Part shown: piece by piece, positions 16,201 through 34,785 of the stretch
Position numbering within the stretch: the first letter of the stretch is position 1
Layout of the letters: each line of letters begins with the position of its first letter
Assembly (NCBI GenBank): GCA_020846875.1
Contig: JADLDB010000049.1
Coordinates: 1-50,325 of the forward strand
Source of the DNA: Myxococcales bacterium
GTDB lineage: Bacteria; Myxococcota; Myxococcia; Myxococcales; Myxococcaceae
Length of the DNA: 50,325 nt
Direction of reading: 5' to 3'
The notes under the pieces: model-generated
Database searches by the model: none
What the model was told of the DNA's origin: nothing
What the model saw: only the letters and a program-made list of their open reading frames with translations
Made by a program: the position numbers and the translations under genes

Positions 16201-17823
16201 CTACTCGGCGATGGTGGTGTAGCGGTACTCCGGATCGTCGTCGTCCTTCTGTTCGCCGAACACCGCGTTGGGCAGCAGCTTCTTGAGCCGCGTCTGATCG
16301 GCCTCGCTGAAGTAGTTGTCAGTGAGGATCAGCTCCTTCAAGTGCTTGAACTTCTCGGCGTGCGCGGCGAGCGTGTCGGCGGCTTTTCCGTTCATCACGC
16401 CCATCGAGAAGTCGAGCACCTTGAGGCGCGGGAGGAGCTTCGAGCCTGCCACCGCCTTGATCAGGTCCTCTTCCCACTCGGAGTTCATCAGGCCGAGGCG
16501 CTCGATCGCCGGCAGGCCCGCGCCGTCGAGGATCCCCTTGAGCGACGCGACGCTGGACGAGCAGCCGTAGTCCTCGGTGCCGAACATCAGCTCGAGGTGC
16601 TTCATCTTCGGCAGCTTCGCCGCGCCGAGCTGCGTGGGCGCGTTCTTGTTCAGCCCACCCGACGTGAAGGAGAGCTTCTCGAGGAAGGGCGCCTCGACGT
16701 CGCCGAAGTCGATCGCCTCGCCGTCGTCGCTGCCCTGGGCGCCCTGGAGGAGCAGCTCCTTCAGGTGCGGCGCAGCCTTCCACAGCCCGCTCAAGTCCCC
16801 CACGCGCCGCCACGACGGCTGATCCATGTGCTCGGCGTCGGGGCTCATGTCGAGCAGCTCGAGGAAGGGGAGCGGCCCGGCTTCGACGATCGCCTCGGCC
16901 AGCCCTTCCATGTGCCACTCGGTGTCTTCGTGGGGCGGCAGCCCGAGCGTCAGCTTGCGGATGAAGTGACCCGCGGGGTGCTCGAGGATGCGGGCCAGCG
17001 TCTCCTCCATCTGGCCTTCTTCCTCGACCTCACCGGGCTGGAGATCGAGGTGCGCGATCACGCCGTTGGCCCACTCGATGGTAGAGCCGTCGATGCCACC
17101 CAGCAGCTCCTTGGCGGTCGCGTCCTGCCTCGCCTTGTCCGGCTTGCCCTGCAGCGCGGCGGAGATGACCTCTCCCCAGGGCTCGCCGTGCTCGATCAGC
17201 CAGTCGGCGAACACGCGCCAGTTGCTGGCGTCGTCAGGCTTCGCGGCGATGGCCGCCTCGAGCTGCGGGTTGCTGGGCGCGGCCGGCTTGACGCCCACCT
17301 CCACGTAACCCTTGCCCGTCTTCTCGGCGATCAGCTTCTTGGTGTCGGCCTTCGCTTCGCCCGCGCTGTCGAAGTCCTTCTCCTTGGTCTGGCCGGCGGT
17401 GCCGATCTTGCCGTAGCGGACGATCTGCTGTTCCCCTTCGACCTTCACCTCCCAGAACTTGTTGGAGCTGCCTTCGGAGAACTCGAAGCGGCGGAAGCCG
17501 GGCTCGACGACGACGTCCTGCCTCGGAGGCGGCGGTGGCGCGGCCTCTTCCTTCGGGGCGGCTTCCTTCTTCGGATCCGCTTCCTTCTGCGGTGGGGGCG
17601 CGGCGGCCCCGTTCGACTTCTCCTGGTAGCCCTTGCCGGTCTTCTCGCGGATCAGCTTGTCGTACAGCTTCTGGGCGCCGGCGACGGAGCCTTCGTCCTT
17701 CACGGTGGTCTGCCCGGTGGCGCCGATCTTCCCGTAGCGGGTCAGCACCTGGCTGCCGTCCATCCAGACTTCCCAGAACTTGTTGGACGTGCCTTCTGAG
17801 AACTCGAAGTACCGCTTCGACAT
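16201..17823 (-). CDS. STM4015-like leucine-rich-repeat protein with two N-terminal WGR domains
   Basis: Encodes 540 residues. Two WGR domains come first: residues 1-70 (FEFSEGTSNKFWEV...RYGKIGATGQT) and about 102-172 (FEFSEGSSNKFWEV...RYGKIGTAGQT). They are joined by an acidic, Pro/Lys/Ala linker. A short block around 180-215 (NWRVFADWLIEHGEPWGEVI) resembles the TIGR02996 repeat-companion motif of myxobacteria. From about 270 on there are leucine-rich repeats (LPKMKHLELMFG, LPAIERLGLMNSEW, LPRLKVLDFSMG, FKHLKELILTDNYFS), closing with DDDDPEYRYTTIAE, a tail like that of STM4015 proteins. WGR domains bind nucleic acid or nucleotides in PARP-type proteins. The fusion may be a recognition or scaffold module for the cluster; that role is inference. 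Confidence 0.8.
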   Translation of the reverse strand: MSKRYFEFSEGTSNKFWEVWMDGSQVLTRYGKIGATGQTTVKDEGSVAGAQKLYDKLIREKTGKGYQEKSNGAAAPPPQKEADPKKEAAPKEEAAPPPPPRQDVVVEPGFRRFEFSEGSSNKFWEVKVEGEQQIVRYGKIGTAGQTKEKDFDSAGEAKADTKKLIAEKTGKGYVEVGVKPAAPSNPQLEAAIAAKPDDASNWRVFADWLIEHGEPWGEVISAALQGKPDKARQDATAKELLGGIDGSTIEWANGVIAHLDLQPGEVEEEGQMEETLARILEHPAGHFIRKLTLGLPPHEDTEWHMEGLAEAIVEAGPLPFLELLDMSPDAEHMDQPSWRRVGDLSGLWKAAPHLKELLLQGAQGSDDGEAIDFGDVEAPFLEKLSFTSGGLNKNAPTQLGAAKLPKMKHLELMFGTEDYGCSSSVASLKGILDGAGLPAIERLGLMNSEWEEDLIKAVAGSKLLPRLKVLDFSMGVMNGKAADTLAAHAEKFKHLKELILTDNYFSEADQTRLKKLLPNAVFGEQKDDDDPEYRYTTIAE

Positions 17824-18222: not shown

Positions 18223-21200
18223 ATGTCGACCGTCAACGTCAAGCGCGGGATCGAGTTCCGCGCGGATCTCTACGGGAAGTCCGATCGCGCCGCCTGGTAC
18301 GACGCCGTGGGCGAGCAGCTCAAGGCGAAGGGGCTGAGCATCAAGGTGGGCGACGGCGCCAGCGCGAAGACGGTCACGGACGGCACGACGCTCAAAGCCG
18401 CGATGAAGGAGCTGCAGGCGCAAGCCACGGCCGCCAACACCCCGCTCAAGACGTACGTCAGCGATCTGATGCAGGCGCTCGACGACGTGGTGAAGGACGG
18501 CGGGGCGAAGGTGAAGGCCGGTGACGCCTTCGACTTGTCGATGGGCAGCAACCTGTCCAGGGCGCTCGGCCTCACCGACGGCAAGTACAACAACTACGCC
18601 TCCACCTACTCCACCGACTTCGGCAAGGCGTCGAAGGCCAAGCCCACGGCCACCATGGCCGTCGACGGGGTGACGCTGCAGGTGAAGGACGGCCCGCTGT
18701 CCAACGTCGATCTCTCCACCATCCCCCACATGAGCGCGGAGACGCTGAAGAACGCCCCGGTGGCCTACGGCCGCGACGGCGAGGAAGTGGAGGACACCCG
18801 CGTCATCACCGGCCTCACCAAGGACGAGACGGTGAAGCTGGCCACCGACGCGCTGAATGATCTGCAGCGCCCGAAGGCGGCGGCCGGCCTGACCCTGGGC
18901 CAGGTGCCGCTGGACGAGATGGCGTGGGACTCGGACAGCCACGCGCTGCGCCGGGCGAACCCGTACGTTTCCTTCACCCTCGACAGCCGCAGCTACGAGG
19001 TGAACCCGAACAACGGCCAGCCGCGCGTGGGCATCGGCCGCGACTTCTTCTTCGACACCTTCATGGCGAAGAAGGACCTGGGCACCGGCAAGCTGACCAA
19101 GGACCTGCAGAAGGCCGAGCTGATGTACCGCACCCGCATCCGCTACGGCTCGGATCGCGATCCCTTCCAGGGCACCCGCGTGTTGATCGGCATGAAGGAA
19201 GGTACGGCGATCGAAGGCGGGGTGAAGCACGCCCGGAAGATCGACAGCCGCACCGACTCGGCCAACCAGCAGATCTTCGACACGCTCAACGCCTCGGCGC
19301 AGACGGGCAAGCTGGGCACCGCCTGGGGCAGTTGGTCCGCCGATCAGGTCGCGCCCGCCGCGTCGTCCATGTACCGGGTGGCGGTGCAGAAGGGCATCAC
19401 CGACAACGTGGGCGGCGAGACGGGCGTGTTGGCGATGGAGCCCGGCGCGGTGGCCCGGCAGATCCGTGGCCGCTTCCACCTCGACGAGACCGATCAGTCC
19501 GCGCTGGTGCAGGGCTTCCAGACCGCGGGCGAGCCGAAGATCAAGGAGCTGGTCACCCTGATTGAGGCCGCGCCGGACTTCGCCGCGTCCAACAACCTGC
19601 CGTCGAAGGCCCAGCTGCTCAGCCAGGCCAAGGCGCTGCTCGATCGCAGCGCCATCGTGGAGGCCGCGGCCGAGGGCCTGAAGAAGGTGGACCCGAACAT
19701 CACCGTGGACAAGGCGCTCATCGATCGCCTCTGGCCGGGCCAGGACGTGAGCAACAAGCAGGACGCGAAGCTGCAGCGCGCGGTGGTGGACGCGATCCGC
19801 GGGAAGTACGACGCCTTCGCGGAGAACATCGACCAGCTGCAGCGGACGTTGGGCGGCAGCGAGGCCCGCAGCGTGCGTGACGCGGGCAGCGCCGGCGACG
19901 TGCAGGACTTCATGCGCTTCAAGGCCGCGGTGGGCCGCTTCATGGCGACCGCGGAGGCCACCACCGGCAGCGGCGTCACCAAGGGCAACGCGGCCAGCTA
20001 CACCGCCTACGCCAAGAAGGTGATCGACCTGGCGGACGGGAAGGAGAAGACGGACCTGTTGCAGCGCATGGGCGTGGGCCTCAACCAGCTGCGGGACATG
20101 ACCGACGCGTCCTTCTCTTCTCCGGTGACGGTGAAGGGCGACCTGGCGAAGAAGCAGACCTTCGAGGGCTTCCTGGCAGAGTTCGACGCGCAGGTGGCCG
20201 GCCCCAACAAGGACGCCTTCCTCGCCGAGCTGGGCGAGCACCTCGCCGGGGAAGACGCGCCGGCGCTGAAGAGCGCCACCGACAAGACGGCCGTAGCCGG
20301 GGACATTCGGAAGAACCTGGTCACCGCGCACGCCGAGGTGCTGCACCGGATGGTGGAAGGCGCCGCCGGCTGGGCCCAGGGCGTGTGGTTCAACGAGTAC
20401 CGGCAGAACGCGCTGGGGGTGAACCCGCAGTCCTGGAACTTCATCATCGGCTCGATGGACTACACGGAGTTCTACGACGCCTCCACCGGCCAGGGCCTGT
20501 CCTTCCAGGACCGCGTCAGCCGCCGCCCGCTGGACGCGGGGAAGATGACGGGAGCGATGATCTCCAACGACATCCAGATCGAGCTGGAGGCCGAGGAGGG
20601 CTACACCGGGGCGATCAAGAAGGCCCAGTACGCGGTCAACAGCGCGGCCGCGGGCATCTTGATGGACTACGCCCTGTCCCGGAACCCGCCCGGCGTGTCG
20701 GCGAACGATCCGGCCAGCCTGGAGAAGTGGTTCGCGCAGCAGTCGTCGCTCACCAAGCTGCAGAAGGAAGCGTTCCTGGGCGACGTGGCGGCCTTCGCCA
20801 AACAGAAGGGCTCGCCGGTGGACGTGGTGAAGGCCTTCGGCCCGCTGGAAGAGCAGGAGAAGGCGATCCGCGTGCTGGTGGGCTTCGCCCAGAAGAAGAA
20901 CCCGGCGCTCGCCAGCGGGGATCGCGCCGCGGTGGAGACCTGGTACCGGGAGATGGGCGGCAAGCCCGAGGCCGAGCTGAACGACTTCCTCACCGAGGTG
21001 GCCCAGTACGCCGCGGATCAGAAGTCCGACCTCCCGCTGTCCCCCAACCTGCTCAAGACGCTGGACTTCAAGCCGTTCACCTCGTCCAACGTCGGCCAGC
21101 CGTACGACAAGCACGCGGCGCTGGTGGACGACCTGGGCATCGCCAACGAGGTGTGGACGATGGTGAAGCAGGCCCAGCAGGATCTGTCCGCGGCCCGCGG

Positions 21201-21309
21201 GCGCGAGGTGCAGCGCGTCCTGCGCGACAACAACCTGTCCAACAAGGGCTGGGATCCGCCGACGTCCGCCAAGGGCGACTACGCGATCAACTACGCGATC
21301 AAGGACTGA
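18223..21309 (+). CDS. Large orphan protein, 1028 residues, no cysteine
   Basis: ATG 18223 follows a purine-rich CGGGGAGG stretch that fits a ribosome binding site. I do not recognise a family. The protein has no signal peptide, no membrane segment and not one cysteine in 1028 residues. It is mostly predicted helical, rich in Ala, Lys, Asp and Leu, with many short Gly/Asn turns. A central segment (about 240-330: NPYVSFTLDSRSYEVNPNNG, YRTRIRYGSDRDPFQGTRVL) looks beta-rich with alternating basic residues, loosely like a CYTH-type tunnel domain, but that is only an impression. Tryptophan-containing blocks occur near 700-760. Absence of Cys is common in proteins exported without chaperoned disulfides. 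The 3' end overlaps the convergent sugar dehydrogenase gene by 11 bp. Confidence 0.85.
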   Translation: MSTVNVKRGIEFRADLYGKSDRAAWYDAVGEQLKAKGLSIKVGDGASAKTVTDGTTLKAAMKELQAQATAANTPLKTYVSDLMQALDDVVKDGGAKVKAGDAFDLSMGSNLSRALGLTDGKYNNYASTYSTDFGKASKAKPTATMAVDGVTLQVKDGPLSNVDLSTIPHMSAETLKNAPVAYGRDGEEVEDTRVITGLTKDETVKLATDALNDLQRPKAAAGLTLGQVPLDEMAWDSDSHALRRANPYVSFTLDSRSYEVNPNNGQPRVGIGRDFFFDTFMAKKDLGTGKLTKDLQKAELMYRTRIRYGSDRDPFQGTRVLIGMKEGTAIEGGVKHARKIDSRTDSANQQIFDTLNASAQTGKLGTAWGSWSADQVAPAASSMYRVAVQKGITDNVGGETGVLAMEPGAVARQIRGRFHLDETDQSALVQGFQTAGEPKIKELVTLIEAAPDFAASNNLPSKAQLLSQAKALLDRSAIVEAAAEGLKKVDPNITVDKALIDRLWPGQDVSNKQDAKLQRAVVDAIRGKYDAFAENIDQLQRTLGGSEARSVRDAGSAGDVQDFMRFKAAVGRFMATAEATTGSGVTKGNAASYTAYAKKVIDLADGKEKTDLLQRMGVGLNQLRDMTDASFSSPVTVKGDLAKKQTFEGFLAEFDAQVAGPNKDAFLAELGEHLAGEDAPALKSATDKTAVAGDIRKNLVTAHAEVLHRMVEGAAGWAQGVWFNEYRQNALGVNPQSWNFIIGSMDYTEFYDASTGQGLSFQDRVSRRPLDAGKMTGAMISNDIQIELEAEEGYTGAIKKAQYAVNSAAAGILMDYALSRNPPGVSANDPASLEKWFAQQSSLTKLQKEAFLGDVAAFAKQKGSPVDVVKAFGPLEEQEKAIRVLVGFAQKKNPALASGDRAAVETWYREMGGKPEAELNDFLTEVAQYAADQKSDLPLSPNLLKTLDFKPFTSSNVGQPYDKHAALVDDLGIANEVWTMVKQAQQDLSAARGREVQRVLRDNNLSNKGWDPPTSAKGDYAINYAIKD

Positions 21310-27399: not shown

Positions 27400-29037
27400 T
27401 CAGGGCACCGAGAAGGTGACCTGCCCGTTCACGTGGAGATCGGGCCGGGTGAAGGTGCCCGCGTCGTAGTTCTGGTGGCACTGCCCGCAGTTGGGGTTCT
27501 GGACGTGCGGGGCGATCGGCGGCAGCTCGTGGCAGGAGCGGCAGGTCGTCTGCGTGCCGTCCACCTGTGTCCACACCGGGACGATGTGCGCCCCGCCGGT
27601 GGGGTTGCCGTTCACCAGGGCCTTCGGATCGTGGCAGGTGGTGTTGGCACAGGTGGTGCCGTTCCAGGTGGGCATGGCCCCGCCGGCGATGGCCGGGCCG
27701 GAGAAGGTCACCTCCACCGCCCCGTTGGCGTGCCCCGCGGCGACCGTCTGGGCAGGCACCACGTGGCAGTCGTCGCACTCCACGGTGCGGAACCACGCGC
27801 CGCCGTCGCGCAGGTGCGTCTGGTGGGCGCCGACGGTGCGGACGGTGGTGGCGGTGTTGCCGTTCAGATCGCGCGGCGGCGCGGGGTTGGCCGTCGAGCC
27901 GTGGCAGCCGTCGCAGTTGGCGGGGGTCGCCTCCTCCACCAGCCCGTTGACGTGGGCACCCGCGTCGACGAGCTGCATGCCGCCGTCCCCGGTGGCGTTG
28001 GGGTGGCAGGCCGAGCACCGGGTCCAGCCCGGGTGTGGCGCCGCGGGGGGCGCGGAGTGACAGCCGTTGCAGTCCAGCGAGGGGCCCGTCGAGGTCCAGG
28101 CCGGGCTGCCCGCGTCCGGCGCGCCCAGGGTGTGGCACCACGCGGTGCAGGTGGCGGTGCTGCGGGTCCAGGCGGCGCCTCCGTCCAGTTGTCCCAGCGC
28201 GGCGCCAGAGAAGATCACCTCCACCGTCCCGTTGGTGTGACCGGGAGAGTCGAGCCGCTGCGGCACGGCGTGGCACTCGGTGCAGGCCACGGGCCGGGCG
28301 GTGGGCGAGCCGGTGAGGTGGGTGGTGTGCGCCCCCACGCCCAGCTGATCGCGCGAGCTGCCGCCGTCCAGCGACACGGGCGGAGCAGCGCCCGCGTCCG
28401 AGCCATGGCACGAGTTGCAGGCCACCTCACCCAGTTGCAGCACGCCGTCGACGTGCTTCTCGGGGGCGAGGAAGGTGCGATCGGCGGCGATCACCTCGGC
28501 GTGGCAGACGTGGCAGGTGGCCGTCTGCGGGTGCGGCGCGGAAGGTGGCAAGCCGTGGCAGGAGCCGCAGGCCTGATCGGAGCTCTTCGGCAGCGTCCAG
28601 ATGTTGGAGGCCGCGTAGCCGTGGCAGTACACGTCGCTGCACCGGCGGGCGTTGGCGTCGTAGCGCGGGCGGCCCGCGTCCAGCGAGGCGAGGGAGCCGA
28701 AGACGAGCTCGGCCGGTCCGTCGCTGTCGTTGTGACCGGCCGACTCGGTCCGCTCCGGCACCACGTGACACTGCACGCAGGCGATCGCCCCGTGGGTGGC
28801 GCTGGCCCGCAGGTGGAGCTGGTGGGCGCCCACCCCGGGAGCCTCCACGGCGGAGTTGCCGCGGGTGTCGTTGGGGGGCGCGGCTTTCAGCACCGCGTCA
28901 CCCGTCGCCTCCGCGCTGCCGTGGCAGCCCAGGCAGCGGTTGTCCTTCGCCTGCTGATCCTCCTCGCGCAGGATGAGGCAGCCGCTCGAAAGGAGCGCCG
29001 CGCCGCACGCCAGACCGAGGGCCAGGTGGCTCCTCAC
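27400..29037 (-). CDS. Multiheme c-type cytochrome lipoprotein, 12 CxxCH plus 3 variant sites
   Basis: Encodes 545 residues from a GTG start that overlaps the upstream stop (GTGA). The signal ends LLSSGC with lipidation Cys20. I count 12 CxxCH sites (for example CLGCH, CVQCH, CGSCH, CNSCH, CTECH, CDGCH, CGQCH) and three variants: CSDVYCH, CTAWCH and CANTTCH. Alternating CxxxxCH and CxxCH pairs with repeated HxNG segments (GHTNGTVEV, GHANGAVEV) are the mark of the Geobacter-type C4xCH/C2xCH cytochromes. Its place after a porin and another multiheme protein suggests the outer-surface member of a porin-cytochrome conduit, like OmcB. Last gene of the leftward operon. Confidence 0.92.
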   Translation of the reverse strand: MRSHLALGLACGAALLSSGCLILREEDQQAKDNRCLGCHGSAEATGDAVLKAAPPNDTRGNSAVEAPGVGAHQLHLRASATHGAIACVQCHVVPERTESAGHNDSDGPAELVFGSLASLDAGRPRYDANARRCSDVYCHGYAASNIWTLPKSSDQACGSCHGLPPSAPHPQTATCHVCHAEVIAADRTFLAPEKHVDGVLQLGEVACNSCHGSDAGAAPPVSLDGGSSRDQLGVGAHTTHLTGSPTARPVACTECHAVPQRLDSPGHTNGTVEVIFSGAALGQLDGGAAWTRSTATCTAWCHTLGAPDAGSPAWTSTGPSLDCNGCHSAPPAAPHPGWTRCSACHPNATGDGGMQLVDAGAHVNGLVEEATPANCDGCHGSTANPAPPRDLNGNTATTVRTVGAHQTHLRDGGAWFRTVECDDCHVVPAQTVAAGHANGAVEVTFSGPAIAGGAMPTWNGTTCANTTCHDPKALVNGNPTGGAHIVPVWTQVDGTQTTCRSCHELPPIAPHVQNPNCGQCHQNYDAGTFTRPDLHVNGQVTFSVP

Positions 29038-30098
29038 AGCGCACCTCCGTGGCAGGCCGCGCAGGACGTGGAGTCGGTGCCCAGGGAGCTGCGCCAGCCG
29101 GGCGGGTGCGGGTTGCCTCCGTGGCCACCCAGCTTGTGGCAGCGCACACAGTTGGAGGCCGCCCCTTGATCATGGCAGGCCGCGCAGGACGAGATGTCGC
29201 GCCGCGCCGCTGGGCCGTGGAGGTTGGTGCCCTGGCCGGTGGTGCCCGCCCAGTTGATCGGGTGCGGGTTGAGGCCGTCCACCGCCCCGCCGGACACGCC
29301 GCGCTGGACGTGGCAGGCGTCGCAGTCCTGCTTCTGGTGGCAGCTCACGCACTGGGCCGGCTGCGACTGCGCCTCGATCGCGTGCCGGGAGAGGAAGTCG
29401 AAGCGGTGCACATATTGCCTGGTGATGGCGTCGGGGTTGCGGAGCTCCGCGCGCAGCGTCTGGGTGGCGTCGTGGCAGCTGTCGCACTGCGCCTGGGCGT
29501 GGCAGCTCGAGCACATCGCCAGCTCGTCGCGGGCCAGGCCGCCATGCCGCTTCATCCACGCGGTGTCGTGGGCGAGGAAGGACACCGGCTTCAAGCCCCG
29601 CAGGTGGTTGGGCTTGTGGCAGGGCGCGCAGTCATTCTTCGCGAACTGCTCCTCGTGCTCGTGGCAGCCGGTGCAGGTCGTCATCGCCGGGAAGAGGGGC
29701 TTGCCGCCCACCGCCTGCACCGCGCCCGCGTGGCACTTTACGCACTGGCCTTTGATCTCCGGCATGGCCAGGTGCTTGTCGTGCCCGAAGATGATGTCGT
29801 ACGCGGCCGGTCGCGCGGCTTCCGGAGGCCGGGTGGCGATGGCGTACTTCTTCTCGTCGCCGGCCTGGTCGTGGCACTTCGCGCACATCGACTGGGGAGG
29901 CTTCACCCAGGAGGAGACCTCCGGCTCGCCCCCGTGGCAGCTGTTGCAGGTGAGGCAGTCGGGCTTGCCCGGCTTGCCGCACTCGATCTCCGCGAGGTGC
30001 AGTTGGTGGGGGAAGCGGGTCAAAAGTCGTCTGGTGCAGGCCCCCGAGGTGGCGAGCAGCGCGAGGCCGGCGGCGAGCGCGACGAAGCGGAGCTTCAC
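29034..30098 (-). CDS. 12-heme c-type cytochrome
   Basis: Encodes 354 residues from a GTG overlapping the porin gene's stop. The signal sequence ends LLATSGAC, giving a secreted or lipid-anchored product. There are 12 CxxCH haem sites (CNSCH, CAKCH, CVKCH, CTGCH, CAPCH, CSSCH, CDSCH, CVSCH, CDACH, CAACH, CVRCH, CAACH) and many extra His for bis-His ligation (HQLHLAEIEC, FGHDKHLAMP). Pattern and size suit the periplasmic-side cytochrome that inserts into or docks on an outer-membrane porin. The start codons of this and the following gene are both GTG with 4-bp overlaps, indicating a fixed production ratio with the porin. Confidence 0.92.
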   Translation of the reverse strand: MKLRFVALAAGLALLATSGACTRRLLTRFPHQLHLAEIECGKPGKPDCLTCNSCHGGEPEVSSWVKPPQSMCAKCHDQAGDEKKYAIATRPPEAARPAAYDIIFGHDKHLAMPEIKGQCVKCHAGAVQAVGGKPLFPAMTTCTGCHEHEEQFAKNDCAPCHKPNHLRGLKPVSFLAHDTAWMKRHGGLARDELAMCSSCHAQAQCDSCHDATQTLRAELRNPDAITRQYVHRFDFLSRHAIEAQSQPAQCVSCHQKQDCDACHVQRGVSGGAVDGLNPHPINWAGTTGQGTNLHGPAARRDISSCAACHDQGAASNCVRCHKLGGHGGNPHPPGWRSSLGTDSTSCAACHGGAL

Positions 30099-31441
30099 GA
30101 GCCACCCCCTGCGCTGGGCGCGTCGAGCTCGAAGACGAGGCGGCCCAGCACCTGCCCTTCCACCACGGCGAAGGGCGAGCTGGTGAGCGATCCGGAGAAC
30201 ATGAGCTTGAGCTCGGGCAGGGCCTGGTACTCCACGTTGGCGATGCCGATCACGGAGGCGGACACTCCGCGCACCGGCTGGTCATAGAGGTAGGTGGCGG
30301 CGTCGACGGTGGCGAAGAGCGCTTCGGTGGCCCGCCAGCGGGCCGCGGCGCGCAGGTGGTTGTAGCCGTTCTCCCACGCGGAGGTGCGCGCGTACTCGGC
30401 GATCAACGTCCAGCGCTCGTCCAGGTCCGGCACCCACTGGGCGCGCAGCGAGGCGCGGGCGCCGAGGCGATCGCCTTCGTACAGTTGGCCGGCGGCGCGG
30501 CCGGTCACCTTGAGGAAGGGGCTGGCCCGCCAGGTGGCCTCGGCGCCGAGCTCATGCCACGACGCCCCGCCGAAGGCCGCGAGGATGGAGGTGTGCGGCA
30601 ACAGGAGCGACGGCGCGGCGTAGGCGTAGTCCACCGAGATGGGGACCTTCTCCAGCTTGGTCACGTCGACGAAGACGCGCGCCTCGGCGGGCCTGGTGGC
30701 GGCGAGGTCGAGCACCAGCCGCCCACCCGCGGTGAAGGTGCCGGACAGGGTGCCGGACACGTCGGCGGAGAGGTTGCGGTACGCCAGCCCGTCGGGCCCC
30801 TGCTGCTCATGAAAGCCCAGCGAGCCCTTGAGCCAGCTCGTCCCCACCCAGGACACCCGCGCGCCCAGCAGCCACTGGCCGGGCCGGGCCTGCGCGTCGA
30901 GGAAGGACGGATCTTTCAGCGCGTCGTTCATCGAGCCGAGCACGTAGTAGCCGCGGGGCCGCACGAAGCGCGGCAGGGTGACGACGCCCACGTACGCCTC
31001 CACGTCGACCGGTCCCACCCGCACGCCGAAGTCCCCGCCGTCGAAGCGCACGTAGCGGGCCGCGCCGGGCAGCGTCACCTGGCGGCCCAGCTTCACCCGG
31101 AAGCGCTTCGTCGCGTGCTGCACCCAGGCGGACTGGAGATCGCCGTCGCCCACGTTGCCCTGCGGGTTGGGGAGCGCGCCCAGGGCACCCCACGCCGACA
31201 GCTCGGCGGAGAAGGAGTCCTTCGCCCAGGGGAGATCGACGTTGCCCACCCGGAGGAAGGCGTAGCCGTACAGCGACGCCACGCTCCGGGGCTCCACCAC
31301 CACGCCGTTGGCGCCGGGCACCAGGGCCTGGCGCGTCACCTGGGCGTAGGTGGAGGCGCGCACGTCCACCGTGTAGTCGTCCTCGGCGCGCGCGGCCGGG
31401 GCGAGGAGCAGCGCGAAGACGGCCAGAGCCGAGGAGCGCAT
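30095..31441 (-). CDS. Outer-membrane beta-barrel (porin of a porin-cytochrome conduit)
   Basis: Encodes 448 residues. A clear signal peptide (about residues 1-19, ending PAARA) is followed by alternating hydrophobic/polar strands with aromatic girdles (LYGYAFLRVG, RFRVKLGRQVTL, VEAYVGVVTLPRF, WHELGAEATWRAS, LRAAARWRATEALFATVDAATYLY), typical of a barrel of perhaps 18-22 strands. The last strands (ELKLMFSGSLTSS and VLGRLVFELDAP) do not end in the classic aromatic residue. There are no cysteines after the signal. It is translationally coupled to two multiheme cytochromes, which is how Pcc (OmbB-like) electron conduits are built. Sequence identity to a known porin is not claimed. Confidence 0.8.
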   Translation of the reverse strand: MRSSALAVFALLLAPAARAEDDYTVDVRASTYAQVTRQALVPGANGVVVEPRSVASLYGYAFLRVGNVDLPWAKDSFSAELSAWGALGALPNPQGNVGDGDLQSAWVQHATKRFRVKLGRQVTLPGAARYVRFDGGDFGVRVGPVDVEAYVGVVTLPRFVRPRGYYVLGSMNDALKDPSFLDAQARPGQWLLGARVSWVGTSWLKGSLGFHEQQGPDGLAYRNLSADVSGTLSGTFTAGGRLVLDLAATRPAEARVFVDVTKLEKVPISVDYAYAAPSLLLPHTSILAAFGGASWHELGAEATWRASPFLKVTGRAAGQLYEGDRLGARASLRAQWVPDLDERWTLIAEYARTSAWENGYNHLRAAARWRATEALFATVDAATYLYDQPVRGVSASVIGIANVEYQALPELKLMFSGSLTSSPFAVVEGQVLGRLVFELDAPSAGGGS

Positions 31442-31442
31442 G

Positions 31443-32240
31443 TCAGTTCCCCACGACGGTCGCGTTCTCCACCACGACCGGGTACGGCGTGCCCATGCCG
31501 ACGTCCTTGTCCAGCGCGACGCGGCCCTCCACCGTCACCTTCGCGTCCGCCTTCACCTCGGTGGAGGTGATGACGGTGAGATCGTCGTCCTTGCCGGTCG
31601 TCCCGCTGCCGTCCTTGAGGTGCACGTAGAAGGCGCCCTGCACCGCCGTCACCTTCGACGCCACGCCCGCCACGCGCACCTTCTTCCCGTTGAGCGCCGC
31701 GCGCTCGGAGAAGACGTCCGTCACCCGCAGCGACAGCGCGTCCCCCGCCTGCTCGACCGCCGCCAGCGCGCCCGCCGCCGACGCGCCAGACCCCGGCGCT
31801 CCCATCGGCGGGTGGCCCGGGGGCAGGCCCTCCGGCGCGCCCGAAGGAGCGGCGCCTTCCAGCTCGCCGAACCAGATGTGCTCGAAGGTGCGGCCCAGCG
31901 TCTTGGAGGTGAAGCCGGTCATCTCCGTGGCGGTGGCCAGGCGCACCTGCTGGCCCTGCCGCACCGCCTGGGTGGAGCCCACCGCGGCCCACGCCTCGCC
32001 CGAGGCCGTCTGCAGCCGGAGGTACGTGTAGCTCGGCACCTGGATGACCTCGGCCACGGTGCCCTCCAGCCCACTGGCCGCCGCGCCCGAGGGGCCCATC
32101 GGTGGAACTCCGGGAGCGCTGGCACCGAGTGGGACCGTCATCGGCGCTGGGGAGGCAGGCGCCGGCGCCGAGACGCGACCAACGGCGAAGCCCACGACGA
32201 AGGTAGCGATGACCGCCGCTGCGAAGAGTCCAGGCTTCAT
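31443..32240 (-). CDS. NrfJ-like periplasmic protein with repeated OB-type domains
   Basis: Encodes 265 residues. The N-terminal hydrophobic helix (FAAAVIATFVVGFAVG) is a signal anchor. Residues about 57-128 (GTVAEVIQVPSYTYLRLQTA...WAAVGS...GFTSKTLGRTFEHIWFGEL) closely resemble the NrfJ-type domain found with cytochrome nitrite reductases. After a Pro/Gly/Ala linker a second beta-rich domain (KVRVAGVASKVTAVQGAFYVHLKDGSG...VEGRVALDKDVGMGTPYPVVVENATV) looks like an OB fold. It leads the leftward operon and ends just before the porin start. It may help haem or cytochrome assembly, or bind a ligand in the periplasm. Function is inferred from family and context only. Confidence 0.7.
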   Translation of the reverse strand: MKPGLFAAAVIATFVVGFAVGRVSAPAPASPAPMTVPLGASAPGVPPMGPSGAAASGLEGTVAEVIQVPSYTYLRLQTASGEAWAAVGSTQAVRQGQQVRLATATEMTGFTSKTLGRTFEHIWFGELEGAAPSGAPEGLPPGHPPMGAPGSGASAAGALAAVEQAGDALSLRVTDVFSERAALNGKKVRVAGVASKVTAVQGAFYVHLKDGSGTTGKDDDLTVITSTEVKADAKVTVEGRVALDKDVGMGTPYPVVVENATVVGN

Positions 32241-32336
32241 GATGTTCGTGCCTGCGAGGTGGACGTGTGACAGGATGCGCCAACCTCGGTCGGTCGTACA
32301 GCACTGTTTTGTGGCGATCTGCGATGAGTTCGACCC
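32241..32336. promoter_or_regulatory. Divergent intergenic region of the two cytochrome operons
   Basis: These 96 bp separate the outward-facing starts of the NrfJ-like and NapC-like operons and should hold both promoters. It includes the AT-richer stretch TACAGCACTGTTTTG. I cannot assign -35/-10 boxes or an operator with confidence. Confidence 0.4.
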
Positions 32337-32984
32337 ATGCATGACTCCATGTCCCTCCCCGCGGTGCTGACGCTGATCTGTGCGGCGGCGGCCGCCCTGA
32401 TTCTCCTCCACTACTTGATCCGCCGGCCCCGCCTCGACGCGCGGGTGCGCATGCGACTTCTGTTCGGCCTGGGCGTGTTGCCCGCGGCGGCCGCGGCGGC
32501 GTCCACCGCGTACGGCATGCACCGCACCACCGAGCGCAGCTTCTGCGGCAGTTGCCACGTGATGTCGAAGCACCTGTCGGACGCGGAGGATCCTGCCAGC
32601 ACGTCCTTGGCCGCGCGCCACGCCCGCAACGCGATGTTCGGCGGCACCAACTGCTACGTCTGCCACGCCGACTACGGAATGCTGGGCTACCCGCTCACCA
32701 AGCTGACCGGGATGAAGCACGTGTACCACTACTACCTGGGCGACTACGGCGACATGCCGATGGACCAGGCGCTCAAGGAGATCCGCGTCGTCAAGCCGTA
32801 CCCCAACTCCAACTGCATGCAGTGCCACTCGGGCGGACTGGACTCCTTCAAGAACGTCCGCGAGCACCGGGCGCTGGAAGAGGACCTGCTGACCAACAAG
32901 GTGGCCTGCGCCAGCGCCGGCTGTCACGGGTACTCGCACCCCTTCAACAAGGACGCCGAGGGAGAGGAGCGCGTCCAGCGATGA
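32337..32984 (+). CDS. NapC/NirT-like membrane tetraheme cytochrome
   Basis: Encodes 215 residues (ATG 32337; an ATG four codons on is equally possible). Two hydrophobic helices (about 8-27 and 41-58) anchor the protein in the inner membrane. Haem sites are C70GSCH, C106YVCH, C160MQCH and a fourth of the Cx4CH form, CASAGCH at 191-197. NapC/NirT/CymA proteins oxidise menaquinol or ubiquinol and hand electrons to periplasmic cytochromes. The first haem segment SFCGSCHVMSKHL resembles the quinol-site haem motif of that family. It starts the rightward operon, whose later genes overlap it. It is the natural entry point for the electron conduit encoded on both sides. Confidence 0.88.
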   Translation: MHDSMSLPAVLTLICAAAAALILLHYLIRRPRLDARVRMRLLFGLGVLPAAAAAASTAYGMHRTTERSFCGSCHVMSKHLSDAEDPASTSLAARHARNAMFGGTNCYVCHADYGMLGYPLTKLTGMKHVYHYYLGDYGDMPMDQALKEIRVVKPYPNSNCMQCHSGGLDSFKNVREHRALEEDLLTNKVACASAGCHGYSHPFNKDAEGEERVQR

Positions 32985-33235
32985 ATTGGCTCCTCCGACT
33001 GCTGGTGAAGTGGCCGACCGAGAAGGCGCTGCGGGTGGCGGCGGCGATGGGCCTGTTGGCCCTGGCGCTGATGTGCCTGGGCATCTTCGATCCGCGGCCG
33101 CTGCAGGTGGTGATCTCCATGTCCGTGTCCCAGGCCTTCGGCGGGGGCGCCTTCCTCCTCTTCTTCCTGTCCATCGCCGCTGACGTGGCGCAGGCGCGCG
33201 CGCGCACGCAGGGCGGAGGCCCGGGGGCGCCGTGA
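32981..33235 (+). CDS. Small membrane protein of the cytochrome operon
   Basis: Encodes 84 residues, ATGA-overlapping the NapC-like gene and GTGA-overlapping the next. Two membrane helices are visible (about 18-38, VAAAMGLLALALMCLGIF; and 43-67, VISMSVSQAFGGGAFLLFFLSIA). No haem motif. I do not recognise the family. Tight coupling on both sides suggests a subunit or assembly partner of the quinol-oxidising cytochrome complex. Confidence 0.8.
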   Translation: MNWLLRLLVKWPTEKALRVAAAMGLLALALMCLGIFDPRPLQVVISMSVSQAFGGGAFLLFFLSIAADVAQARARTQGGGPGAP

Positions 33236-34785
33236 CGCCTCGCGCCCATCTTCTCCTCGCCGCGGCCGCGGTGCTGCTGTGGGGTTGTGGCGGGCTTTCG
33301 TCGGGAGCGCCCGCGGACGGCGGGGTGCTGATCGTCCCCGCCAGCTACCACGAGGCCTCCGTCACCGGCGGGCACGTCAAGCACGTCGGCCAGCCGCGGC
33401 CCGACGGGGGCAACATCGCCTGCCGGGACTGCCACGACGTGGACGTGAAGGGCTTCGAGGATCCAGGGCTGGGCGCCTGCAAGAGCTGCCACGAAGACCA
33501 GGCGGGCTACCACCACACCGCCGACGCCGGGCTGGCCGACGGGGGCCAGGTGACGTGCATGTCCTGCCACCCCTTCTGGGTGCGCCAGGGCGCGCAGCCG
33601 CTCACCCCGTGGATCTGCCAGGACTGCCACCGGGAAGCACAAGGACAGAAGCGCGAGGTGGAGGCCCACGCCTCGGCCTGCTTCTTCTGCCACCAGCCGC
33701 ACCGGGAGCCCTTCACCCGGCCGCCGGACTGCGTGGTGTGCCACGAGGTCGGCCTGGTGCACGGGGCGAAGGGCGACACCGTGGCGCAGACATGCATGAA
33801 GTGCCATGAGCAGCACCGGCCCGCCGCCGAGGCGACGAAGGTGTGCGTGGCCTGCCACTCGGACGAGAAGGAGCAGAAGACGGCCGCCACCCGCGTCACC
33901 GAGAAGGCGCTCTTCAAGGGGCACGGCAGCTGCGGCGCCTGCCACAAGCCGCACCGCTTCGCGAAGAACGAGGTGAAGGCGTGCGAGGCCTGCCACAAGA
34001 ACCAGCCGGTGTTGGCCAAAGGGCTGAGCCCCAAGGCCCACCCCACCTGCGTTTCCTGCCACGCGCCGCACGCGGCCAACCAGCCGCCGAAGACGTGCGA
34101 GTCCTGCCACAAGGACATCCCCGCGACGCACCCGGTGACACCGGAGCTGCCGGCGTGCATGTCCTGCCACCCGGTGCACCAGGAGCTGCCCAGGGGCGTG
34201 GCGGTGAAGGACTGCGAGAGCTGCCACAAGGAAGCGGAGTTCCAGGCGGTGGTGCACGGCAAGGACGACAAGGGCCAGCCGCTGGTGTGCGCGAGCTGCC
34301 ACAAGCCGCACCAGTACTTCGTGAAGAAGGGCGACCAGGCCTCCTGCAAGGAGTGCCACGGCCCCATCCTCACCGCGACGGCGAAGGTGAAGAAGCAGGG
34401 CCACGCGAAGTGCGCCGACTGCCACGCGGGGCTGCCGCACAAGCCGGCCGACTCGCCCAAGGGGTGCACCGAGTGCCACAAGGACAAGCCGTCCACCGGC
34501 AAGGGCCACGTGAAGTGCCTCGACTGCCACGAGAAGCACGACGGCTCGACGGAGAAGGGCTGCGTGGCCTGCCACAAGCTGGCCGAGCTCGAAGGGCTGC
34601 ACGCGGAGAAGAAGCACCAGACGTGCGGCGACTGCCACACCGTGCACTCACGCAAGCCCGGCTACCAGCGCGACGGGTGCCTGGCCTGCCACAAGGAGCA
34701 GGTCAACCACGAGCCGAAGGCCGAGCGCTGCACCGGCTGCCACCTCTTCGAGGAGCCGACCAGCCCGCCGGTGCAGAAGAAGTAG
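33232..34785 (+). CDS. 23-heme c-type cytochrome lipoprotein
   Basis: Encodes 517 residues from a GTG overlapping the previous stop. The leader ends LLWGC, a lipobox-like site (Cys19). I count 23 CxxCH motifs, one per 22 residues, from CRDCH to CTGCH, separated by Lys/His-rich spacers with recurring patterns such as CHKPH, CHAPH and CxxCHK. This gives about two haems per repeat with distal His supplied by the KPH/VH segments. Such density forms a nanowire-like haem chain. Given its lipid anchor and its place with a NapC-like protein, it probably shuttles electrons through the periplasm to the porin-cytochrome complex. No enzymatic domain is visible outside the haem repeats. Confidence 0.92.
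   Translation: MTPRAHLLLAAAAVLLWGCGGLSSGAPADGGVLIVPASYHEASVTGGHVKHVGQPRPDGGNIACRDCHDVDVKGFEDPGLGACKSCHEDQAGYHHTADAGLADGGQVTCMSCHPFWVRQGAQPLTPWICQDCHREAQGQKREVEAHASACFFCHQPHREPFTRPPDCVVCHEVGLVHGAKGDTVAQTCMKCHEQHRPAAEATKVCVACHSDEKEQKTAATRVTEKALFKGHGSCGACHKPHRFAKNEVKACEACHKNQPVLAKGLSPKAHPTCVSCHAPHAANQPPKTCESCHKDIPATHPVTPELPACMSCHPVHQELPRGVAVKDCESCHKEAEFQAVVHGKDDKGQPLVCASCHKPHQYFVKKGDQASCKECHGPILTATAKVKKQGHAKCADCHAGLPHKPADSPKGCTECHKDKPSTGKGHVKCLDCHEKHDGSTEKGCVACHKLAELEGLHAEKKHQTCGDCHTVHSRKPGYQRDGCLACHKEQVNHEPKAERCTGCHLFEEPTSPPVQKK

Follow-up and report, generated by a model that had tools for sequence, protein, structure and literature searches.

The window analysed here, a stretch of 50,325 nucleotides from a Myxococcaceae MAG, contains a cluster of seven genes, A to G, and reading of the open reading frames (ORFs) placed all seven at the positions given in the original prediction. 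The genes form two divergent operons, as had also been predicted. The minus-strand operon D-C-B-A encodes a 545-aa lipoprotein cytochrome (A, 27400–29037), a 354-aa dodecahaem cytochrome (B, 29034–30098), a 448-aa outer-membrane β-barrel with about 22 predicted strands (C, 30095–31441) and a 265-aa protein that combines a hydrophobic N-terminal anchor with an OB/TOBE-like domain (D, 31443–32240). The plus-strand operon E-F-G encodes a 215-aa tetrahaem membrane cytochrome of the NapC/NrfH type (E, 32337–32984), an 84-aa membrane protein with two hydrophobic segments (F, 32981–33235) and a 517-aa lipoprotein cytochrome (G, 33232–34785). Neighbouring genes share 4 bp at A/B, B/C, E/F and F/G, and C and D are separated by 1 bp. 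The operons diverge from a 96-bp intergenic region (32241–32336), where both promoters are expected. The outer neighbours, genes of an SDR oxidoreductase and an alanine racemase, both point towards the cluster, which makes its boundaries clear. The four cytochromes and the barrel listed in the original prediction were all found; the list needs correction for D, which is an OB-fold-like protein and not a cytochrome, and for F, the small membrane protein. Elsewhere in the window, a 1028-aa ORF (18223–21309) whose codon composition is gene-like and which matches no Pfam family lies near the gene of a WGR-domain protein (16201–17823).

The four cytochromes carry 54 haem motifs in total (50 CXXCH and 4 CX3-4CH), within the expected range of about 51–54. 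Protein A contains 15 (12 CX2CH, one CX3CH and two CX4CH), B contains 12, G contains 23 of the CX2CH type and E contains four (three CX2CH and one CX4CH). Residue-shuffled copies gave means of 0.03–0.39 CXXCH per protein with maxima of 2–4, which rules out a chance cluster, and no CXXCH was found in the other stop-to-stop frames longer than 60 aa in the whole 50-kb window. In orthologues with about 40–57% identity the motifs are kept, alongside roughly enough additional conserved histidines to act as distal ligands. Across 30 or 40 homologues with identities as low as about 33%, the alignment of B retains 12 CXXCH and another 12 histidines, as many as 12 bis-His haems require. In G, 23 motifs and 24 further histidines are kept in eight orthologues; in A, the 15 motifs are kept in 13 sequences, with 14 invariant and two near-invariant further histidines. 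These alignments demonstrate selection on the haem motifs.

The same alignments revealed a lipobox cysteine that is invariant in A (C20) and G (C19) and near-invariant in B (C21). Thus, the expected lipoprotein nature of A (12–15 haems had been anticipated) and of the 23-haem protein G was borne out, and B, described earlier simply as a 12-haem cytochrome, retains that description with the addition that it is also lipoprotein-like. Three of the four cytochromes therefore look like lipoproteins. The compartments suggested for A, B and G rest on these cysteines, and an outward-facing A is a proposal.

Protein A consists of repeats matching the TIGR01904 family at 4.2e-36, over the cut-off; the PDB sequence search with A found nothing useful. 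The profile of B matched MtrA (6r2q_A) with an E-value of 8.6e-5, and the AlphaFold model of B, built without haems, was poor (pLDDT 64, pTM 0.33). Protein E matched PF03264 (Cytochrom_NNT) at 45.9 bits against a cut-off of 24.1 and has N-terminal hydrophobic segments, seen by reading the sequence. The CXXCHVM motif at the first haem is a signature of NapC/NrfH proteins; in E it takes the form CXSCHVM and is invariant, together with the four haem motifs, in 11 homologues. The predicted NapC-like tetrahaem membrane protein is supported by these features. E is the sole match to a NapC-like protein in its genome, and no match to NrfA (PF02335) was found in the whole genome, which together argue against a role in nitrite reduction. 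An NrfHA or NapC system working with a soluble reductase was rejected on the absence of NrfA. A tie of the cytochromes to a soluble reductase had been named in the original prediction as a finding that would count against it; there is no soluble reductase beside the cluster. Protein F is conserved between E and G (48–63% identity). The OB/TOBE matches of D are weak; it may be an assembly or stability factor.

For barrel C, no sequence relative was found in Pfam, NCBIfam or the PDB. An AlphaFold model built on an alignment of 38 homologues (pLDDT 83.4, pTM 0.76) comprises a signal-like N-terminal helix and about 22 strands. Structure comparison with Foldseek and VIA-align returned many outer-membrane barrels at similar scores, with Z above 14; MtrB of the Mtr complex (6r2q_B, Z 15.5) stands among ushers, OprD-type and TonB-type barrels at 14–18. 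The model confidently predicts an outer-membrane barrel, in agreement with the earlier assignment, and the structure does not single out a particular family.

The barrel was found in 45 of the 145 genomes of the order, including twelve other Myxococcaceae genomes at 44–50% identity. Genes A, B, C, E, F and G occur together in all ten Myxococcaceae relatives whose contigs reach far enough, with near-constant haem counts of 4/23/15/12 for E/G/A/B, a few single motifs being read as having longer spacing. When 84,980 genomes were scanned with the B alignment, 80 loci emerged, in which the identity of B was 53–57% in Archangium/Myxococcaceae MAGs, 41–50% in Polyangiaceae-type MAGs, 37–38% in Anaeromyxobacter oryzae, A. 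soli and Anaeromyxobacter sp. PSR-1, and 26–31% in Ignavibacteria/Bacteroidota. A barrel lies directly upstream of the 12/13-haem gene in 40 of the 80 loci by homology (tblastn), and a barrel-length ORF takes this place in 35 more; the remaining five loci start at contig ends. Every locus with enough flank (75/75) thus has a barrel or a barrel-length ORF before the 12/13-haem gene. The barrels of the A. oryzae, A. soli and PSR-1 loci share 24–25% identity with C, and the Ignavibacteria-type and window-type barrel profiles match with an E-value of 1.2e-20, a figure that has no unrelated-barrel baseline. Profile searches also found both the barrel and the 12-haem genes in most genomes of the group used for the Anaeromyxobacter comparison (f3). 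The search for the same locus in Anaeromyxobacter and relatives, suggested with the original prediction, thus recovered a reduced form in Anaeromyxobacter, the complete one in other Myxococcaceae and part of it in Polyangiaceae.

Gene D is located directly upstream of the barrel in four Polyangia-type loci as well (L074, L076, L078 and L099), and tblastn did not find it in Archangiaceae-type loci. Some Polyangia-type loci encode 27-motif versions of G. Frames with 34 CXXCH were observed at L077:6265-8511 and L075:1990-4155, where a G-like protein of 27 motifs seems to be joined without a break to an additional multihaem part at its N-terminus. In two Myxococcales MAGs, A-like CX4CH cytochromes of about 1290 aa with 28 CXXCH and eight longer motifs (L095:4577-8458 and L097:4656-8507) are encoded just upstream of the barrel/13-haem pair.

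Eight relatives possess an ORF with 10 CXXCH between the barrel and the NapC-like gene. In L066, L067 and L073 its product scores over the TIGR03507 (OmcA/MtrC) cut-off; in L065, L068 and L071 it matches the confirmed OmcA/MtrC proteins at 57–76% in BLAST; in L040 and L042 it was seen solely as a 10-CXXCH ORF. A divergent OmcA/MtrC family member lies downstream of G in L041, and locus L064 has no decahaem gene. The window locus also lacks an OmcA/MtrC-family (TIGR03507) decahaem gene. A contig break as the cause of this absence is ruled out, the locus being intact within one contig between its two convergent neighbours. The genome of the window does encode a protein of this family on another contig, C124 (L153:7185-9698; 451 bits against a cut-off of 209). 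Since it shares only about 28% identity with the in-locus type, it is probably a paralogue. The C124 protein carries a collagen-like GPAGP N-terminus. The simplest reading of the distribution would be that the D-C-B-A arrangement is older and that the decahaem gene was gained, and D lost, in the lineage that gave rise to the Archangiaceae-type loci.

The B profile also matched a 390–394-aa homologue with 13 CXXCH in many large Myxococcaceae genomes (E-values of 1e-45 to 1e-48). The gene of this homologue is directly downstream of a barrel-like ORF of about 470 aa in L160:5561-8589 (G043), L161:6203-9276 (G101) and L162:5624-8727 (G075), each time followed by a lipoprotein-like ORF of about 160 aa; in L163:7156-9813 (G085) the two are adjacent by match position. 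The profile of this second barrel matches that of the window type (E-value of 5.6e-14, with no unrelated-barrel baseline) and was found in 38 of the 96 genomes of the family, many of them large and cultured-type. In some members of one genus (G104, G108, G114, G115 and G118) only short remnants of the second barrel are present, and in G109 it is split. The second barrel is absent from the genome of the window.

The original prediction related the cluster to the porin-cytochrome (Pcc) conduits of Geobacter. The porin-cytochrome assignment holds, as both the barrel and the 12-haem protein have homologues in an Anaeromyxobacter pair, and the comparison needs refinement: among the sequences compared, the nearest described relatives are the Pcc of Anaeromyxobacter and, more remotely, Ignavibacteria-type pairs. 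The Anaeromyxobacter locus in genome G014 is, from its map position, probably that of Adeh_3392. Pcc group IV comprises two-gene clusters of Anaeromyxobacter, whose 12-haem protein Adeh_3392 increased when Mn(IV) was being reduced (Shi et al. 2014, PMC4245776). By homology, the B/C pair belongs with this group: a homologous barrel (22–26% identity; 443–444 aa) directly precedes a homologous 12-haem protein (33–39%; 344–360 aa), with sizes similar to those in the window. Unlike group IV, which has two genes only, the window adds the NapC-like E, F, the 23-haem and 15-haem lipoproteins and the OB-fold protein. The tree of B also sets them apart: the window sequence is sister to eight Archangiaceae/Myxococcaceae MAGs (support 100/99), these join Polyangiaceae (100/100), and Anaeromyxobacter forms a separate clade.

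The OmbB-OmaB-OmcB conduit of Geobacter sulfurreducens resembles the cluster in its gene set, namely a barrel, a periplasmic-side cytochrome and a lipoprotein cytochrome, and Geobacter proteins share with A the CX4CH/CX2CH repeat family TIGR01904. However, B has 12 haems against eight in OmaB, A has 15 against 12 in OmcB, and the window locus also includes genes for inner-membrane and periplasmic proteins. No cluster protein matched the NCBIfam Ext models above cut-off. MtrCAB-CymA of Shewanella is comparable in its NapC-type tetrahaem quinol oxidase, in the wire-in-barrel logic and in the OmcA/MtrC-family decahaem of the window's relatives, but the window barrel has about 22 strands and 448 aa against the modelled 649-residue MtrB chain, the window locus has no MtrC-type gene, and the 23-haem G has no Mtr counterpart. 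The Ignavibacteria/Bacteroidota sets (Stygiobacter electus and others), consisting of a barrel, a 14-haem protein and a CX4CH cytochrome, follow the same barrel, B-like, A-like order and have a homologous barrel, with B at the 26–31% identity given above. They differ in a B of about 400 aa and in an A-like protein that is shorter in most loci (about 5–8 CXXCH), and no close homologues of E, F or G were recovered from these loci.

Taken together, the locus probably encodes a Pcc-type electron conduit leading from quinol to the cell surface across the whole envelope and serving extracellular electron transfer; we give this reading a probability of about 0.75, and we infer the compartments, the order of the carriers, the outward direction and the acceptor. 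E, in the role of CymA at the inner membrane, would take electrons from menaquinol; G would act as a periplasm-spanning wire; B, in the role of MtrA or OmaB, would thread barrel C and pass electrons to A; and A, as an outer-surface lipoprotein, would reduce an acceptor outside the cell, for example an oxide of Fe(III) or Mn(IV), humics, an electrode or another cell. The accessory proteins would be F and D, as membrane and OB-fold assembly or stability factors. The OmcA/MtrC-type decahaem added by most Myxococcaceae relatives would be a terminal reductase. By analogy with the known conduits, this myxobacterium may thus be capable of extracellular electron transfer. Several findings count against this reading: the model of the 12-haem protein is poor, the barrel has no specific solved relative, and the window locus is without the decahaem of most relatives. 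Cultured Myxococcaceae, moreover, are mostly described as aerobic predators.

The outward direction is suggested by the homologous pair in metal-reducing Anaeromyxobacter, with Adeh_3392 rising under Mn(IV) reduction. This link to metal reduction makes it unlikely that the same conduit runs in reverse, bringing electrons from Fe(II), a mineral or a partner cell into the quinone pool, as proposed for Mto/Pio, although proteins of the NapC/CymA type can work in either direction and the sequence itself does not settle which one applies. It is also conceivable that the cytochromes store electrons in the periplasm or supply a reductase that is periplasmic or soluble, the barrel merely exporting or stabilising them. 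Three lipoproteins with 50 haems could serve as a capacitor, and the outward orientation of A is only proposed. Such a role seems distinctly unlikely given the constant place of the barrel immediately before B in Myxococcota and in Ignavibacteria/Bacteroidota, the lack of a reductase at the locus and of NrfA in the genome, and the OmcA/MtrC decahaem in the locus of most relatives. That decahaem, missing from the window, raises the further question of whether the cluster is a decaying, incomplete conduit that has lost its terminal component, all the more as the window's B is sister to the eight relatives. We consider a relic very improbable: none of the seven ORFs is broken and no haem motif is missing, the D-C-B-A order is common to Polyangia-type loci, so that the arrangement in the window could be the earlier one, L064 is also without a decahaem, and the divergent family member on C124 is present in the same genome.

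No description of the seven-gene chain in Myxococcaceae, of the 23-haem lipoprotein or of the Mtr-like decahaem variant was found in the open-licence literature, nor was Archangium found there paired with a multihaem cytochrome; the account of MtrCAB by Baker et al. (2022) does not mention Myxococcota. The complete chain, which goes beyond the described Pcc conduits, is apparently undescribed.

Among myxobacteria, metal respiration has so far been linked to Anaeromyxobacter. The presence of the whole chain from quinone to surface at a single locus in Myxococcaceae MAGs, along with its extended and Mtr-like forms, would show that interchangeable modules make up related conduits, and the pieces worth expressing together can be read from the conserved linkage. 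More tentatively, social, predatory myxobacteria could possess a hybrid conduit lineage that combines the barrel and wire of Pcc group IV with a surface lipoprotein of the Geobacter CX4CH type, a quinol oxidase like CymA, a periplasmic wire of 23–27 haems and, mostly, a Shewanella-type OmcA/MtrC decahaem. With the second barrel/13-haem pair counted in, extracellular electron exchange might be a standard feature of these bacteria, serving perhaps between cells or in anoxic soil and not just in mineral respiration, a possibility that we regard as doubtful for now. Because cultured-type relatives carry the second pair, the question can be put to the test in laboratory-grown strains.
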